From an uncultured Ruminococcus sp. (lineage in GTDB: Bacteria > Bacillota > Clostridia > Oscillospirales > Ruminococcaceae), in the NCBI GenBank assembly GCA_902788785.1, contig CADALT010000002.1, positions 88,668 to 152,667 on the forward strand: a DNA stretch of 64,000 nucleotides, in the 5' to 3' direction. Below, piece by piece: positions 33,888 to 42,519 of the stretch. Made by a program: the position numbers and the translations under genes. Each line of letters begins with the position of its first letter. The stretch's first letter is position 1. Below the pieces are notes generated by a model, which ran no database searches, was not told the origin of the DNA, and saw only the letters and a list, made by a program, of their open reading frames with translations.

Positions 33888-36047
33888 ATGAGGACCAAGG
33901 GAATGGGCAGAATGAAAAAAAGATATGTCCCCGACCGCACTATCAGGATCGCAAGAGAACGCTCGGCTAAAAATACACTGGCAGCTTTCATTTGTACTGC
34001 CGTGGTGGGCGCAGGCTTCTCGGGCTATCTCTATTATCAGTCTTACTATGCCGCAGGCTGGCATACCCACGCTGATGGTACTTATTATATATCTAAGGAA
34101 ACAGGCGAGAAAGTCACGGGCTATCAGATGATAGACAATATGTGCTATCTCTTTGATGATAAGGGCTATATACTTCCGCCGGGCTGGCAGGACTTCCGTG
34201 GCGACACTTATTATCTGGGCAAAAACGGCGTTATACAGAGAGGTACCATCGAGGTCGATGGTGAAAAGTATTATTTCTCCACCGAGTCGGGCGTGTTCAG
34301 GAAAGGACTCGTCAGGATAAACGGCGATGAGTATTATTTCGATGACCACGGCTTCCCGGGCTCGGGCTTTTCGGGAAATTCATATTTCGATGAGAACGGC
34401 AAGCAGTACCGTGGCTGGGTCGAAGTGGGCGGCAAGCAGTATTATTTCAAGAATGACGGCACCATGGCAGTAGGATTTCTGGAAATAGAGAATAAGGTCT
34501 ATTACTTCGATGACGAGGGCAAAATGATGACCGACTGGCAGGTGATAGGCGGCGAAAGATATATGTTCTCGGACAGCGGCGTGCTGCATCATGGCTGGAT
34601 AGAACGTGACGGCAAGTATTATTATGCCGATGAAAAAACAGGTATGTGCGCCCGTGGCTTCAAGGAGATAGAGGGCAAGACCTACTATTTCGATGATAAG
34701 GGCGAGATGGTAAGGCGCTGGCGTGAGATCAAGGGTCAGCTTTACCATTTTCAGGATGACGGCGTGATGGATACAGGTTGGTACGAGGACGGTCCCGAAA
34801 GATATTATCTGAGAGATACGGGCGAGGCTGCACGAGGCATCACCAAGATAGGCGATGAGATATACGGCTTCGATAAGGAAGACGGCAGACTTCTCACAGG
34901 CTGGCAGGAGATAGGCAATTCCAGATACTTCTTCGGTTCGGACGGAACGGTGCAAAGCGGCTGGCAGCAGATGGACGGGCTGGATTATTACTTCGACCCC
35001 GAGACCTATGCGGCAGCTTACGGCTGGACAAGCATCGGTGCTGAGTCCTCCGAAACAGTCCAGTTCGCACAGGATATGGAGAAGGGCACCAATTCCGATA
35101 AGTACAAAAAGGGCACTCTGGGCGAGTATCAGATGCAGGCATATAAGCGTCTGGGTGAAGAGGTGCTGGGAAATTATTATTTCTATGATGATAACAGCAT
35201 GGCAACGGGCTGGATAAAGGTGGGCGAATACCGTTTCCACTTCGATGAGGAGACAGGCAAAAAGACCACAGGCTGGGCTACCATTGGCGGCAACAGGTAT
35301 TACTTCGGTGAGACAGGTGCAGCTGCGGTGGGCGAGTTCAAAAACGGCAGCGAGAACTATATGTTCGCAGCGGACGGCGCAATGTCCGAGGGACTTGTCA
35401 AGACCGAGGGTCAGATAAAGTTCCGTGACAAGAATGGCAGCTGGATAAAGGGCGATTTCCACACCGAGGGCGGCAAGACCTACTATTTCGATGAGAGCGG
35501 AAATGCGGCTACGGGCTGGACGACCATTGCAGGCGAAAAATATTATTTCGACGAATACGGTGTCATGGCGAGCGGAATATTCACCGACGGTACAGACACT
35601 TACTATATGGGCAAAAAGGGTCTTGAAACAGGCAAATGGGTCAATGTGGAAACGGGCACTTACTATTTCGGGGCTGACGGCAAGGCTTATACGGGGCTCA
35701 ATAAGGTCGGAAACACGGAGTTCTATTTCCTTGAAAACGGCTTGCTGGCTGAAGGCTGGCTGAATGTCGGCGATAAGAGGTGCTACTACGAGAACGGTGT
35801 GGCGCTGAGAGGACCTGTTTATATTAGCGGAGATTATTTCAATCTGGGCGAAGGCGGATATATCACCGCAGGCTGGGTGAACTGGAGCGGCGAGAGGTAT
35901 TATAACCTTGAGGGCGGCTACATGGCTACAGGCTGGCAGTATATCGACGGCGAGCAGTATTATTTCGACAGCGAAGGCGTTATGCAGTTCGATACGGTCA
36001 TAGACGGTATTGAACTTGGTGCTGACGGGACCGCAATTTATGACTAA
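33888..36047 (+). CDS. Cell-wall/choline-binding-repeat protein with N-terminal membrane anchor
   Basis: 719 residues. A basic N-terminus and one membrane segment (about residues 28-47) are followed by some thirty degenerate repeats of about 20 residues with the pattern G-W-x-x-I-x-G-x-x-Y-Y-F-D-x-x-G-x-M, the CW_binding (PF01473-like) repeat. These beta-solenoids bind wall teichoic polymers or glucans. No catalytic domain is seen, so it probably serves as an adhesin or scaffold. Two gaps in the repeats (about residues 380-435 and 505-520) may be spacers. AAAGGA precedes the ATG. Own promoter and terminator. Confidence 0.9.
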   Translation: MRTKGMGRMKKRYVPDRTIRIARERSAKNTLAAFICTAVVGAGFSGYLYYQSYYAAGWHTHADGTYYISKETGEKVTGYQMIDNMCYLFDDKGYILPPGWQDFRGDTYYLGKNGVIQRGTIEVDGEKYYFSTESGVFRKGLVRINGDEYYFDDHGFPGSGFSGNSYFDENGKQYRGWVEVGGKQYYFKNDGTMAVGFLEIENKVYYFDDEGKMMTDWQVIGGERYMFSDSGVLHHGWIERDGKYYYADEKTGMCARGFKEIEGKTYYFDDKGEMVRRWREIKGQLYHFQDDGVMDTGWYEDGPERYYLRDTGEAARGITKIGDEIYGFDKEDGRLLTGWQEIGNSRYFFGSDGTVQSGWQQMDGLDYYFDPETYAAAYGWTSIGAESSETVQFAQDMEKGTNSDKYKKGTLGEYQMQAYKRLGEEVLGNYYFYDDNSMATGWIKVGEYRFHFDEETGKKTTGWATIGGNRYYFGETGAAAVGEFKNGSENYMFAADGAMSEGLVKTEGQIKFRDKNGSWIKGDFHTEGGKTYYFDESGNAATGWTTIAGEKYYFDEYGVMASGIFTDGTDTYYMGKKGLETGKWVNVETGTYYFGADGKAYTGLNKVGNTEFYFLENGLLAEGWLNVGDKRCYYENGVALRGPVYISGDYFNLGEGGYITAGWVNWSGERYYNLEGGYMATGWQYIDGEQYYFDSEGVMQFDTVIDGIELGADGTAIYD

Positions 36048-37638: not shown

Positions 37639-37821
37639 AGAAAGATGATCTATATATTGTGTTTGCCCGACGGCGGATGAAATATCGCCGAGCGAAAACA
37701 GTAAGGTTCGCATGGGCAGGGTCGTCCTCACAAAAAACAGCAAAGATGATTAAGCTCCCGTCAGGACACTGTGGGGAGCCTGTCGTATTGTCTTTGACTG
37801 CACAGACAGGGAGAGATTTGA
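37639..37821 (+). ncRNA. Structured pflB leader RNA (candidate cis-regulator)
   Basis: GCCC/GGGC (37665-37668 / 37714-37717) encloses CGGCG/CGCCG (37671-37675 / 37686-37690) and GCGAA/TTCGC (37692-37696 / 37707-37711), a compact three-way junction. GTCCT (37724-37728) can pair with AGGAC (37763-37767) in the loop of GCTCCC/GGGAGC (37754-37759 / 37774-37779), giving a pseudoknot. CTCCC (37755-37759) can instead pair with GGGAG (37809-37813), part of the pflB ribosome site. I recognise no known riboswitch class; folding is by eye. Confidence 0.5.
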
Positions 37822-39942
37822 ATGGAAAGAACATGGTATGATGAAGAATGGAAAGGCTTTAAGCCCGGCAGATGGTCGAGCACTTCCGTTAACCTGAGAG
37901 ATTTCATCCAGAAGAACTTCACACCTTATGATGGTGACGAGAGCTTTCTGGAAGGCCCTACAGAGGCTACAAAGCAGCTGTGGGATCAGGTTCTGGAACT
38001 GAGCCAGAAGGAGAGAGAAGCAGGCGGCGTGCTGGATATGGATACAAAGATCGTTTCCACCATCACAAGCCACGATGCAGGTTATCTCAATAAGGATCTT
38101 GAGAAGATAGTAGGCTTCCAGACAGATAAGCCTTTCAAGCGTTCTCTGCAGCCTTTCGGCGGACTGAGAATGGCACAGGCTGCCTGCAAGCAGTACGGTT
38201 ATGAGGTAGATCCCGAGGTCGTAAAGATCTTCACAGATTACAGAAAGACACATAACCAGGGCGTTTTCGATGCTTACACTCCCGAGATGAAGCTGGCAAG
38301 ACACGCAGCTATACTCACAGGTCTGCCCGATGCTTACGGCAGAGGCCGTATCATAGGCGACTACAGAAGAGTTGCACTGTACGGTATCGATTACCTCATT
38401 GAAGATAAGAAGGATCAGCTGGCTAATTCACTGGTCAGAATGACTTCCAAGAATATCAGACTCAGAGAAGAGCTGGCTGAGCAGATCAGAGCTCTGGGCG
38501 AACTGAAGAAGCTGGGCGCTATCTACGGCTGCGATATCTCCAAGCCTGCAAAGAACGCCCAGGAAGCTATCCAGTGGCTGTATTTCGGCTACCTGGCTGC
38601 TGTTAAGGAGCAGAACGGTGCGGCTATGTCTCTGGGCAGAACTTCCACATTCATTGATATATATATCCAGAGAGATATACAGAACGGCGTACTGACCGAA
38701 GTTGAGGCTCAGGAGCTGGTAGACCACTTCATCATGAAGCTGCGTCTTGTTAAGTTCGCAAGAACACCCGAGTATAACTCCCTGTTCTCGGGCGACCCCA
38801 CATGGGTAACAGAGTCCATCGGCGGTGTTTCCATCGACGGTACACCTATGGTAACAAAGACTTCGTTCAGATACCTCAATACTCTGAACAACCTGGGTCC
38901 TGCACCCGAGCCTAATATGACAGTTCTGTGGTCACAGAAGCTGCCTCTGAACTTCAAGAAGTTCTGCGCTAAGATGTCTATCAGAACTTCCGCTATACAG
39001 TACGAAAACGACGACCTGATGAGAGTTACTCACGGCGATGACTACGCTATAGCTTGCTGCGTATCCTCCATGGTAGTTGGTAAGGAGATGCAGTTCTTCG
39101 GCGCAAGAGCTAACCTGGCTAAGTGCCTGCTGTACGCTATAAACGGCGGTATCGACGAGAGACTCGGCGTTCAGGTAGGTCCTAAGTACAGACCTGTTGA
39201 GGGCGAGTACTTGGACTATGATGATGTTATGAGCAAGTACGATGATATGATGGAATGGCTGGCAGGTCTGTATGTAAATACACTGAACGTTATCCACTAT
39301 ATGCACGATAAGTACAGCTATGAGAGACTGCAGATGGCTCTGCACGACAGAGATGTAAAGAGATACTTCGCAACAGGTATCGCAGGTCTTTCCGTTGTTG
39401 CTGACTCCCTGAGCGCTATCAAGTATGCTAAGGTTAAGCCTATCCGCAAGGATATCGAGATCAAGGACAAGGAAGGCAATGTTATCGACATCGCAAGAAA
39501 CGTTGTTGTTGATTACGTAGTTGAGGGTGACTTCCCCAAGTACGGCAACAATGATGACAGAGTTGATAAGATCGCTGTAAATATCGTTAAGACATTCATG
39601 AACAAGATCAGGAAGCACCACACATATCGTGACGGCGTACCTACCATGTCTATCCTGACCATCACATCCAACGTGGTATATGGTAAGAAGACAGGTTCGA
39701 CACCTGACGGCAGAAAGATCGGCGTGCCTCTGGCTCCCGGTGCTAACCCCATGCACGGCAGAGATACTCACGGTGCAGCTTCCTCACTGTCCAGCGTAGC
39801 TAAGCTGCCTTTCAGACACGCACAGGACGGTATCTCCAATACATTCTCCATCATTCCCGGCGCACTGGGTAAGGATGATGAGGTATTCGCTGGCGATATC
39901 GACATAGAGAGCATTGCTCGGGAGATGGAAAATGGCAATTAA
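37822..39942 (+). CDS. pflB: Pyruvate formate-lyase core lacking the glycyl-radical domain
   Basis: 706 residues, clearly PflB along its length. The adjacent active-site cysteines are C412-C413 in AIACCVS (E. coli C418/C419), and GALGKDD appears near the end as in canonical PflB. The protein then stops after a short unrelated tail (MENGN), where normal PflB continues for about 70 residues to the RVSGYA radical glycine. No glycyl-radical motif occurs in it. Alone it should be unable to hold the radical; the 40185 gene supplies that domain. PFL converts pyruvate and CoA to acetyl-CoA and formate. GGGAGAG precedes the ATG. Confidence 0.93.
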
Positions 39943-40168
39943 GGCTTCACTCGATGATGACGGCAAGGTAAATGAACTTGTCGAAATGATAGATAAGCTC
40001 ATGGCAAGCGGCGAAGGTCATATCAATATCGACGCCGATGCCCTGCTTAAAGCCAAAAAAGAAGGTCAGGACGACGTTGAACTCAACGTTCAGACTTTCA
40101 GAACAAACGACTGCGGCACAGGCGCTTGCTGTCAGCCAAATGAAAAAGCGCCCGATGAAGACGATTAA
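39932..40168 (+). CDS. Degenerate glycyl-radical-domain-like small protein
   Basis: 78 residues, starting inside the pflB end (11-base overlap; GGAG eight bases upstream). [11 protein letters not shown]...GHINI...ALLKA aligns with [11 protein letters not shown]...HHLNVN...MLLDA of the true radical domain in the 40185 gene, with a three-residue gap. Where that domain has RVSGYA this protein has QTFRTN, so the radical glycine is missing. It ends with a Cys-bearing acidic tail ([13 protein letters not shown]). It lies in a third reading frame relative to its neighbours, each with its own ribosome site. Role unknown; a stabiliser, plug or chaperone of the core is a guess. Confidence 0.7.
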
Positions 40169-40184
40169 GAAAGGATGGTCTTTT

Positions 40185-40436
40185 ATGGCAAATTTTGAAC
40201 CTACAGACACACAGGTCGATAATCTTATAGGACTGCTTGACGGCTATGCAGAGAAGGGCGGTCATCACCTTAATGTAAACGTACTCAACAGAGAGATGCT
40301 GCTGGATGCTCAGGCACACCCTGAGAAGTATCCTCAGCTGACAATCAGAGTTTCGGGTTATGCAGTTAACTTCGTTAAGCTGACAAAAGAGCAGCAGGAC
40401 GACGTTATCTCCAGAACATTCCACGATAAGCTCTAA
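40185..40436 (+). CDS. grcA: Stand-alone glycyl-radical domain (GrcA/YfiD-like)
   Basis: 83 residues. Almost all of it is the C-terminal domain of [47 protein letters not shown] with the radical Gly at residue 58, and [15 protein letters not shown]. In E. coli the similar GrcA is a spare part that rescues oxygen-cleaved PFL. Here pflB itself has no such domain, so this protein is probably an obligate subunit, activated by PflA. AAAGGA precedes the ATG; 16 bases separate it from the previous gene; a strong terminator follows. Confidence 0.93.
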
Positions 40437-40654: not shown

Positions 40655-41725
40655 ATGCAGGACAACAGACAAAACTATGGAAATATAAACGGGCAATACC
40701 AGCCTTACGGAAACGGTCAGCCTACCATGCAGCAGAACGGGCAATACCAGCCTTATGGCAATGGTCAGCCTACAATGCAGCAGAATGGGCAGTATCAGCC
40801 TTATGGAAACGGTCAGCCCACCATGCAGCAGAATGGGCAGTACCAGCCTTATGGAAACGGTCAGCCTACCATGCAGCAGAACGGGCAGTATCAGCCTTAC
40901 GGAAACGGTCAGCCCATGATGGGTCAGCCGCAGGTCATGCCTAAAAACAGCCAGTTTCCCCCCTATGCAAATGGTCAGCATATGGGGAACGGACAGTATC
41001 AGGACTTTACAGCTGAACAGTTGAGAAGAAGTTCCCTTGATCCCAATGACCCTGTACTGAAAATGACCAGGGCACGCAACAGGCAGCAAAATCCCGACCT
41101 CAGGACCAAGTCGCTGATACCTGCCATCGCAGGTGTGCTGATAGCTGTGTTCACCTGCTCAAATTTCCCGAAATTAGCGCTCTTTATCGCCTGTCTCAGC
41201 CTGATGATAACTTTTATTCTGGCGCAGAAGGATGTCAGACCTTTCAAGAAAGAAAGCAAGTTCAGCAGGGCTATGTATGCGGCGGCATCGGGAGTGGGCG
41301 CTCTTGGTGCGTTCATATCAATGGTGATGCCCGGTGCAGGCAAACTTGCAGCAGGTGCGGCGCTGCTGCTGGGAATTATCGTTGCGGTAACACCCCATGT
41401 TGCCAGAAGTCTGAAGAAAAAACGCTGCACTGAAAGGACAAAAGCGGTCTGCATCGGCAACGATTCGCATATGTCGGGCAGCGGCAGGAACCGTAAAATG
41501 GTCTTTGCGCCGATCTGGCAGTATACTCTGGGCGGCAGAGCGTACACTCATGGCGAGACTGTTTATAAAAGCCCGCAGGAATTTCAGAACGGCGAGGGTA
41601 CCGAACTTCTCGTGAACCCCAATGACCCTATGGACTTCCTCCGTGAGAGCGACCATACTAATCTGATACCTACGGTGATAGGTGCTGTAATTGCTCTTAT
41701 TTCCATCATTAATATGCTGAAATAA
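40655..41725 (+). CDS. Gln/Asn-rich repeat membrane protein with DUF3592-like domain
   Basis: 356 residues. Residues about 12-91 are five tandem 16-residue repeats (NGQYQPYGNGQPTMQQ), then more Gln/Pro/Asn-rich sequence to about 125. Two or three membrane segments follow (about 150-190 and 210-250). The domain WQYTLGGRAYTHGETVYKSP...LLVNPNDPMDF resembles DUF3592, and a last membrane segment ends the protein. The N-terminus is probably cytoplasmic and disordered. It lies 14 bases before pflA and shares its promoter, but no functional tie to PFL is evident. AAGGAG precedes the ATG. Confidence 0.75.
   Translation: MQDNRQNYGNINGQYQPYGNGQPTMQQNGQYQPYGNGQPTMQQNGQYQPYGNGQPTMQQNGQYQPYGNGQPTMQQNGQYQPYGNGQPMMGQPQVMPKNSQFPPYANGQHMGNGQYQDFTAEQLRRSSLDPNDPVLKMTRARNRQQNPDLRTKSLIPAIAGVLIAVFTCSNFPKLALFIACLSLMITFILAQKDVRPFKKESKFSRAMYAAASGVGALGAFISMVMPGAGKLAAGAALLLGIIVAVTPHVARSLKKKRCTERTKAVCIGNDSHMSGSGRNRKMVFAPIWQYTLGGRAYTHGETVYKSPQEFQNGEGTELLVNPNDPMDFLRESDHTNLIPTVIGAVIALISIINMLK
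40688..40927 (+). repeat. Five tandem 48-bp coding repeats
   Basis: Units start at 40688, 40736, 40784, 40832 and 40880, each coding for 16 residues (NGQYQPYGNGQPTMQQ; the fifth is altered at its end). Differences between units are mostly synonymous third-base changes, so they arose by duplication and are kept in frame. Confidence 0.93.
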
Positions 41726-41739
41726 AAGGATAATGAATA

Positions 41740-42519
41740 ATGAATGATAATACAAACACTGTCCTGAAAGGACATATACATTCCACTGAAAGCTTTGGTA
41801 CCGTGGACGGTCCCGGCATAAGGTTCGTCATATTTTTTCAGGGATGTCCCATGAGATGCCTCTACTGCCATAACCCCGATACCTGGTCTGTGGGCGGCGG
41901 CAGGGAGGTCACGACAGATGAACTGCTGGCGGAGTATGAGTCGGTGAAAGAATTTATGAGGGGCGGCGGAATTACCTGCACGGGCGGCGAACCTACCCTA
42001 CAGATGGATTTTCTCACCGAGCTTTTCGAGAAAGCCCACGAAAAAGGCATACACACCTGCCTTGACAGCTGCGGCGTGACATTCAATAAGTCGCACCCGG
42101 AAAAGTTTGAGCGCCTTATACGCTCCACCGACCTTGTTATGCTGGATATAAAGCATATCGATCCCGAGGAGCATAAGAAGCTTACAGGGCATGATAATAA
42201 GAATATACTGGATTTTGCTGACTTTTTAAGCGACCATGATGTGCCCGTGTGGATAAGGCACGTTGTTGTCCCCGGTATCACAGATAATAAGGAGTACCTG
42301 TACAAGCTGGGCAGAAGGCTCGCACATATCCATACCATGAAAGCGCTTGATGTACTGCCTTATCATACCATGGGCAAGGCTAAATATGAACAGCTGGGAT
42401 TGGAATATCCTTTGGGCGATACCGAGCCTATGTCCCACGAAGGCGCTAAGGCTGCACGGGATGAGATAATGCGTGGGCTCAAAGATGAGCTGGCGGAGAT
42501 CATCAGAAATAAAAAATAA
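41740..42519 (+). CDS. pflA: Pyruvate formate-lyase activating enzyme
   Basis: 259 residues, radical SAM. GTVDGPGIRFVIFFQGCPMRCLYCHNPDTW holds the CxxxCxxC [4Fe-4S] motif near residue 36; GGGITCTGGEP near 73 binds SAM; MLDIKH near 142 and ARIRHVVVPGI-like IRHVVVPGITD near 173 complete the PflA pattern. It places the glycyl radical on PFL; here the target should be Gly58 of the separate 83-residue protein. AAAGGA precedes the ATG. Confidence 0.96.
   Translation: MNDNTNTVLKGHIHSTESFGTVDGPGIRFVIFFQGCPMRCLYCHNPDTWSVGGGREVTTDELLAEYESVKEFMRGGGITCTGGEPTLQMDFLTELFEKAHEKGIHTCLDSCGVTFNKSHPEKFERLIRSTDLVMLDIKHIDPEEHKKLTGHDNKNILDFADFLSDHDVPVWIRHVVVPGITDNKEYLYKLGRRLAHIHTMKALDVLPYHTMGKAKYEQLGLEYPLGDTEPMSHEGAKAARDEIMRGLKDELAEIIRNKK

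Follow-up and report, generated by a model that had tools for sequence, protein, structure and literature searches.

Glycyl-radical enzymes are usually seen as single chains that are killed by an oxygen cut, and the spare part found in Escherichia coli as a rescue device. That spare part, GrcA (YfiD), is a stand-alone glycyl-radical domain that completes the core of pyruvate formate-lyase (PFL) in trans, as does, we propose, the small protein described below. The available text of one study (PMC8683613) describes GrcA as rescuing the oxygen-cut full-length PFL and as having a disordered N-terminus of 60 amino acids. According to the same part of that source, E. coli PFL reduced to residues 1–695 reaches wild-type-level activity with YfiD once activated; binding between the two is undetectable by ITC, activation is 32-fold lower, residues 696–733 serve as the recognition element, and YfiD on its own shows no detectable activation.

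The locus of interest lies in a window of 64,000 nucleotides, the whole stretch of Ruminococcus DNA that was analysed, and its four genes described first are all on the + strand. The pflB core (37822–39942) encodes 706 amino acids, with the codons for the catalytic Cys412-Cys413 pair at 39055–39060 and a Shine-Dalgarno-like GGGAG at 37809–37813. It is followed by a 78-amino acid middle protein (MID; 39932–40168), a Cys-tailed open reading frame that lacks the radical glycine motif, with Cys61 encoded at 40112–40114, Cys66 and Cys67 at 40127–40132, and its own GGGAG at 39920–39924. The third gene (40185–40436) encodes a stand-alone glycyl-radical domain of 83 amino acids (GRD; NCBIfam GrcA3), with the codon for the radical Gly58, in the motif RVSGYA, at 40356–40358 and an AAAGGA at 40170–40175. 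The core and MID genes overlap by 11 nt, and 16 nt separate the MID stop from the GRD start. Further right is pflA (41740–42519), encoding a 259-amino acid radical-SAM activase. A sequence-only reading of this DNA had described a core that keeps both cysteines and ends before the radical domain, together with a separate open reading frame carrying Gly58; the coordinates, lengths and residues all hold, the residues having been checked by script. That reading also mentioned the third frame and the near-touching arrangement with individual ribosome sites, which agrees with the overlap and gap given above and with the Shine-Dalgarno-like runs seen by eye, and it left the MID protein itself undescribed. 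Between the GRD and pflA genes is a 356-amino acid open reading frame (40655–41725) whose N-terminal part is made of 48-bp tandem repeats (4.7 copies, 91% matches), and the length of this GRD-to-pflA stretch varies among relatives. To the left, a 719-amino acid repeat open reading frame (33888–36047) has repeats that by eye are like those of cell-wall or glucan-binding proteins.

The core alone passes the TIGR01255 cut-off (1110.2 bits against 994.2) and covers positions 2–665 of the 744 in the model, with the glycyl-radical domain encoded in the separate frame rather than in the same chain. Comparison with PDB sequences shows how the two pieces relate to E. coli PFL: core residues 9–689 correspond to E. 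coli residues 10–681, and GRD residues 9–81 to residues 680–757, such that core and GRD tile the C-terminal part of the E. coli enzyme without a gap, meeting at 680/681. The core has in addition a C-terminal tail that extends beyond the E. coli-equivalent part. The Cys pair, the RVSGYA motif and PflA are common to the two systems; however, E. coli PflB is one chain, and here there are two, plus the core tail and, in this genus, an extra protein similar to that of 78 amino acids. By homology, the split enzyme would catalyze the CoA-dependent cleavage of pyruvate to formate and acetyl-CoA. The solved chains nearest to the core are 38la_A (1143.7 bits) and 38lb_A (1111.1 bits), both labelled 'Formate acetyltransferase' in the PDB, compared to 1030.7 bits for E. 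coli PFL. From their sequences both look like split cores: the 38la chain ends in GKED, similar to the GKDD end of a natural core in genome G466, and the tail of 38lb contains two cysteines. From these chain ends and their closeness to our core, split-type cores have probably already been solved by another group. No GRD or MID chain of the 38la or 38lb entries was matched in the PDB sequence searches, and neither entry is among the matches listed from a fold library ending in April 2026.

The assembly to which the window belongs is 2.95 Mb long and 90.6% complete, and no full-length PflB was found in it. It has one PF02901 match, which is this core. Its glycyl-radical matches number three: two are at the locus, in the GRD and in part of the core, and the third is a 743-amino acid frame elsewhere, whose length and NrdG-like neighbour suggest an anaerobic ribonucleotide reductase. 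Only pflA passes the TIGR02493 (PFLA) cut-off. Among 29 genomes of the same genus, this one included, 27 have a PF02901 match, and a TIGR01255 search of all 29 gives truncated or fragmented cores with separate GRD matches in 27 and a full-length PflB in none of these 27. The core/MID/GRD order, which the sequence-only reading had proposed looking for in related genomes, is present in all 24 same-genus loci that were read (our own included), the three unread loci being those with fragmented matches (G001, G011 and G025). Two apparent exceptions disappear on inspection: the second PF02901 frames in G003 and G026, with TIGR01255 scores of just 93 and 97 bits, belong to other glycyl-radical enzymes, and the core and GRD that the search output joined into one frame in G016 and G021 are separated by stop codons in the loci themselves. 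Two further members of the genus (G008 and G013) have neither a PF02901 nor a TIGR01255 match, one of them being 99% complete, and PFL seems to be dispensable in some Ruminococcus. The MID profile led to 38 named loci, and a GRD is present in all but one of them; a strict script recovers the MID in 30 of the 38, and a loose script in 35 of the 37 that have the GRD.

The split arrangement is shared with other genomes, in Ruminococcus and in some other Clostridia. We used even samples of the order and of the class, both including our own genome. Of the 245 genomes in the order sample, at least 17 carry a GRD that passes the GrcA3 cut-off, those 17 being in frames of 82–152 amino acids, and in the class sample 21 of 391 do so; in a sample of the phylum only two of 398 pass, our own and another from the class. 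The order and class samples together give at least 39 different genomes, including G466 and G476, whose stand-alone GRDs fall just below the cut-off; a 79-amino acid GRD frame of G238 was left out, as it is truncated at the end of a contig and has the look of a fused type. A truncated TIGR01255 core is present in 38 of the 39 GRD-bearing genomes. None was found in G476, where the GRD sits near the start of a contig. The GRD adjoins the truncated core in all 38 pairs read, with gaps of −38 to 432 nt in the 36 that were measured, and 36 of the 38 truncated-core genomes, some of which are only 60–85% complete, yielded no full-length PflB. The earlier proposal of a split PFL with an obligatory radical subunit is thereby supported both within the genus and in this wider sample. 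In a branch of the Clostridia that includes strains of Ruminococcus albus, the only PFL seems to work in separate pieces, and a literature search that reached few subscription journals found no paper on such an arrangement. The remaining two genomes, G526 and G625 (L151 and L172; L148 and L171), carry a full-length PflB together with a split pair, and the split pair lacks the Cys module described below.

The least explained part of the arrangement is a Cys-bearing relative of the GRD, the MID. Its first half is a degenerate relative of the helix and strand of the glycyl-radical domain, as seen from an hhalign comparison with the GRD first half (93%; score 39, where 300 column shuffles gave no more than 17), a narrower earlier comparison having given only 73%, and 15 of 22 MIDs give weak GrcA3 matches. 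The second half is a Cys module, with the pattern roughly D-C-x(2-6)-A-C-x-x-P-T; by eye, this stands in place of the RVSGY radical loop, which is absent from all 19 aligned MIDs. Neither the MID nor the module has a family of its own in Pfam or NCBIfam at their cut-offs, the MID alone matching no Pfam family at its cut-off; the MID profile has no credible match among PDB sequences, and the predicted MID fold, a weak model (pLDDT 60), has none among solved folds in the PDB.

The Cys module usually lies between core and GRD, although not always on a separate protein. By eye, it is at the end of a separate MID in 11 of the 38 GRD-core pairs and on the C-terminal tail of the core in 20; in two more the tail has just a Cys pair, and the last five show nothing of the kind. 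A script finds the module in 28 of 36 pairs, at a chance rate for its motif of 3.3% of 60-amino acid stretches in the open reading frames of the window; inspection by eye adds G366 (MID) and G624 (a variant tail), and the later-read pairs of G332 (MID) and G466 (no module) bring the total to 31 of 38. Comparison shows the modules of MIDs and core tails to be related, with a score of 38.5 where 200 shuffles reached at most 17.7. At fused junctions, the script finds the module in none of 15 rows (13 different genes), and none is seen by eye in seven further fused rows. Because five pairs are without it, the module is not strictly required, and two of the five module-less genomes also hold a full-length PflB. 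The GRD family itself is already known from the NCBI GrcA3 model; what appears to be new, from these alignments, is that the MID combines a GRD relative with a Cys module, and that in many split systems without a MID the module is on the core tail. The module, which mostly accompanies the split, is a testable hint at the requirements of a free radical subunit.

A simpler account of the locus would be a decayed or mis-sequenced pflB, to which we give almost no credence. Among the 19 loci with the motif on the core tail, 12 (L072, L073, L075, L079, L083, L085 and others) have the GRD in the frame of the core, separated from it by one or more stop codons and a spacer of 12–57 nt with a Shine-Dalgarno-like site seen by eye; this speaks for such an account, and the in-frame placement may be either a trace of the origin of the split or the chance of rare read-through. 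It is opposed by the constancy of the gene order in the same-genus loci, which include those of assemblies in only two and five contigs (G015 and G022), by the separate starts and Shine-Dalgarno-like sites seen by eye, and by purifying selection on all three open reading frames: the median dN/dS is 0.034 for the core, 0.17 for the MID and 0.028 for the GRD, and no kept pair reaches 1, in a set of 21 loci restricted to pairs with dS of 0.15–1.2 (61, 35 and 66 of 210 pairs, respectively). The view that this is no sequencing artefact, already put forward in the sequence-only reading, is sustained, and on gene order and selection we reject both artefact and decay. In addition, the available part of a co-culture study of R. 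albus 7 (PMC6776011) reports PFL as highly expressed, although it also reports formate below 1 mM, which counts against the reading preferred below.

The small protein could alternatively be a mere spare part, as GrcA is in E. coli, with a full-length PFL doing the normal work. The NCBI name for GRDs of this type, autonomous glycyl radical cofactor GrcA3, is in keeping with this, as are the two genomes that do hold a full-length PflB. The name comes from NF038360, which the GRD passes (164.3 bits; cut-off 158) and of which it is a member, and whose listing names the small protein alone, as a cofactor. The GRD falls well short of the model for true GrcA (TIGR04365; 98.7 bits, cut-off 170), and it carries a helix (residues 9–24) ahead of the strand, which is missing from the GrcA match. 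Moreover, unlike the GrcA system, the core here is itself without the domain, and the absence of a full-length PflB to rescue, in our own genome, in the same-genus genomes and in nearly all of the sampled genomes with truncated cores, makes the spare-part explanation very improbable; a role restricted to that of a spare is rejected for our own genome as assembled. More weight, though still well short of favour, goes to the idea that the MID is not a docking aid but a separate metal or redox accessory, similar to the small Fe-S subunits that other glycyl-radical enzymes have, that protects or quenches the radical. In its favour, small Cys-bearing subunits exist in other glycyl-radical enzymes, and C61, A65, C66 and P69 are invariant in the 19 aligned MIDs. 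The relationship of the MID first half to the GRD suggests instead a place at the GRD site, not an accessory standing on its own, and we regard the accessory role as rather unlikely.

The reading that we prefer, and consider quite probable, is that of an obligate two-piece PFL in which the radical subunit docks in trans with help from the MID or the Cys tail. The GRD would complete the core barrel with its own strand and glycine loop, PflA would place the radical on Gly58, and the radical would then pass in trans to the active-site cysteines of the core for catalysis. An oxygen cut at Gly58 would leave the GRD as the sole subunit needing replacement, so that the destroyed part could in principle be cheaply renewed. 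Because the natural core ends before the equivalent of E. coli residue 695, something else should supply recognition; the Cys module together with the GRD's own helix may do so in place of the missing 696–733 segment. The module, on the MID or elsewhere on the core tail, may keep or mark the GRD site while it is open, and aid GRD docking or activation. The weakest step is the proposal that its conserved cysteines could form a redox gate or a metal site. An AlphaFold model of a read-through core-GRD chain is poor (pLDDT 55), and we therefore make no claim about docking from it; known glycyl-radical enzymes are among the matches listed by Foldseek with this model. Miller and Wolin, in 1973, reportedly found that R. 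albus makes formate, and that pyruvate-to-formate lyase activity could not be demonstrated in extracts; the missing activity would be accounted for if the core-GRD complex came apart when diluted. As a tentative extension, on balance somewhat doubtful, the enzyme could be a three-part one, with a core, a consumable radical subunit, and a MID that arose from the radical domain, lost its glycine and gained cysteines, and occupies the radical site as a placeholder and redox gate until a fresh GRD arrives; the gate would have moved to the core tail in related lineages and been dropped at re-fusion. The two-piece enzyme is a natural setting for separating activation from radical transfer in trans and from oxygen repair.

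The history of the split was examined in a careful tree of 69 of 89 rows (the 20 left out being mostly near-duplicates), from which the core tail and the GRD were excluded; 10 of the 38 named loci had been entered before this reduction. The split cores form one clade with three fused rows (support 99/92), namely L102, L149 and L150 from genomes G272, G598 and G594. A clade of the split rows alone, as expected from a single clean split, is rejected (p-AU 0.001), because these three fused rows lie inside it. The fewest changes between split and fused states number two, with two to three in bootstrap trees, and the tree is best read as suggesting one split followed by one re-fusion, with caution as to the re-fusion from the long branches of the three fused rows; alternatively, there may have been several independent splits. 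L102, L149 and L150 are thus candidate re-fusions of core and radical domain. No Cys module is present at the junctions of these three nested rows, in which the pieces have seemingly been joined again, and they provide natural controls for the split enzymes around them.
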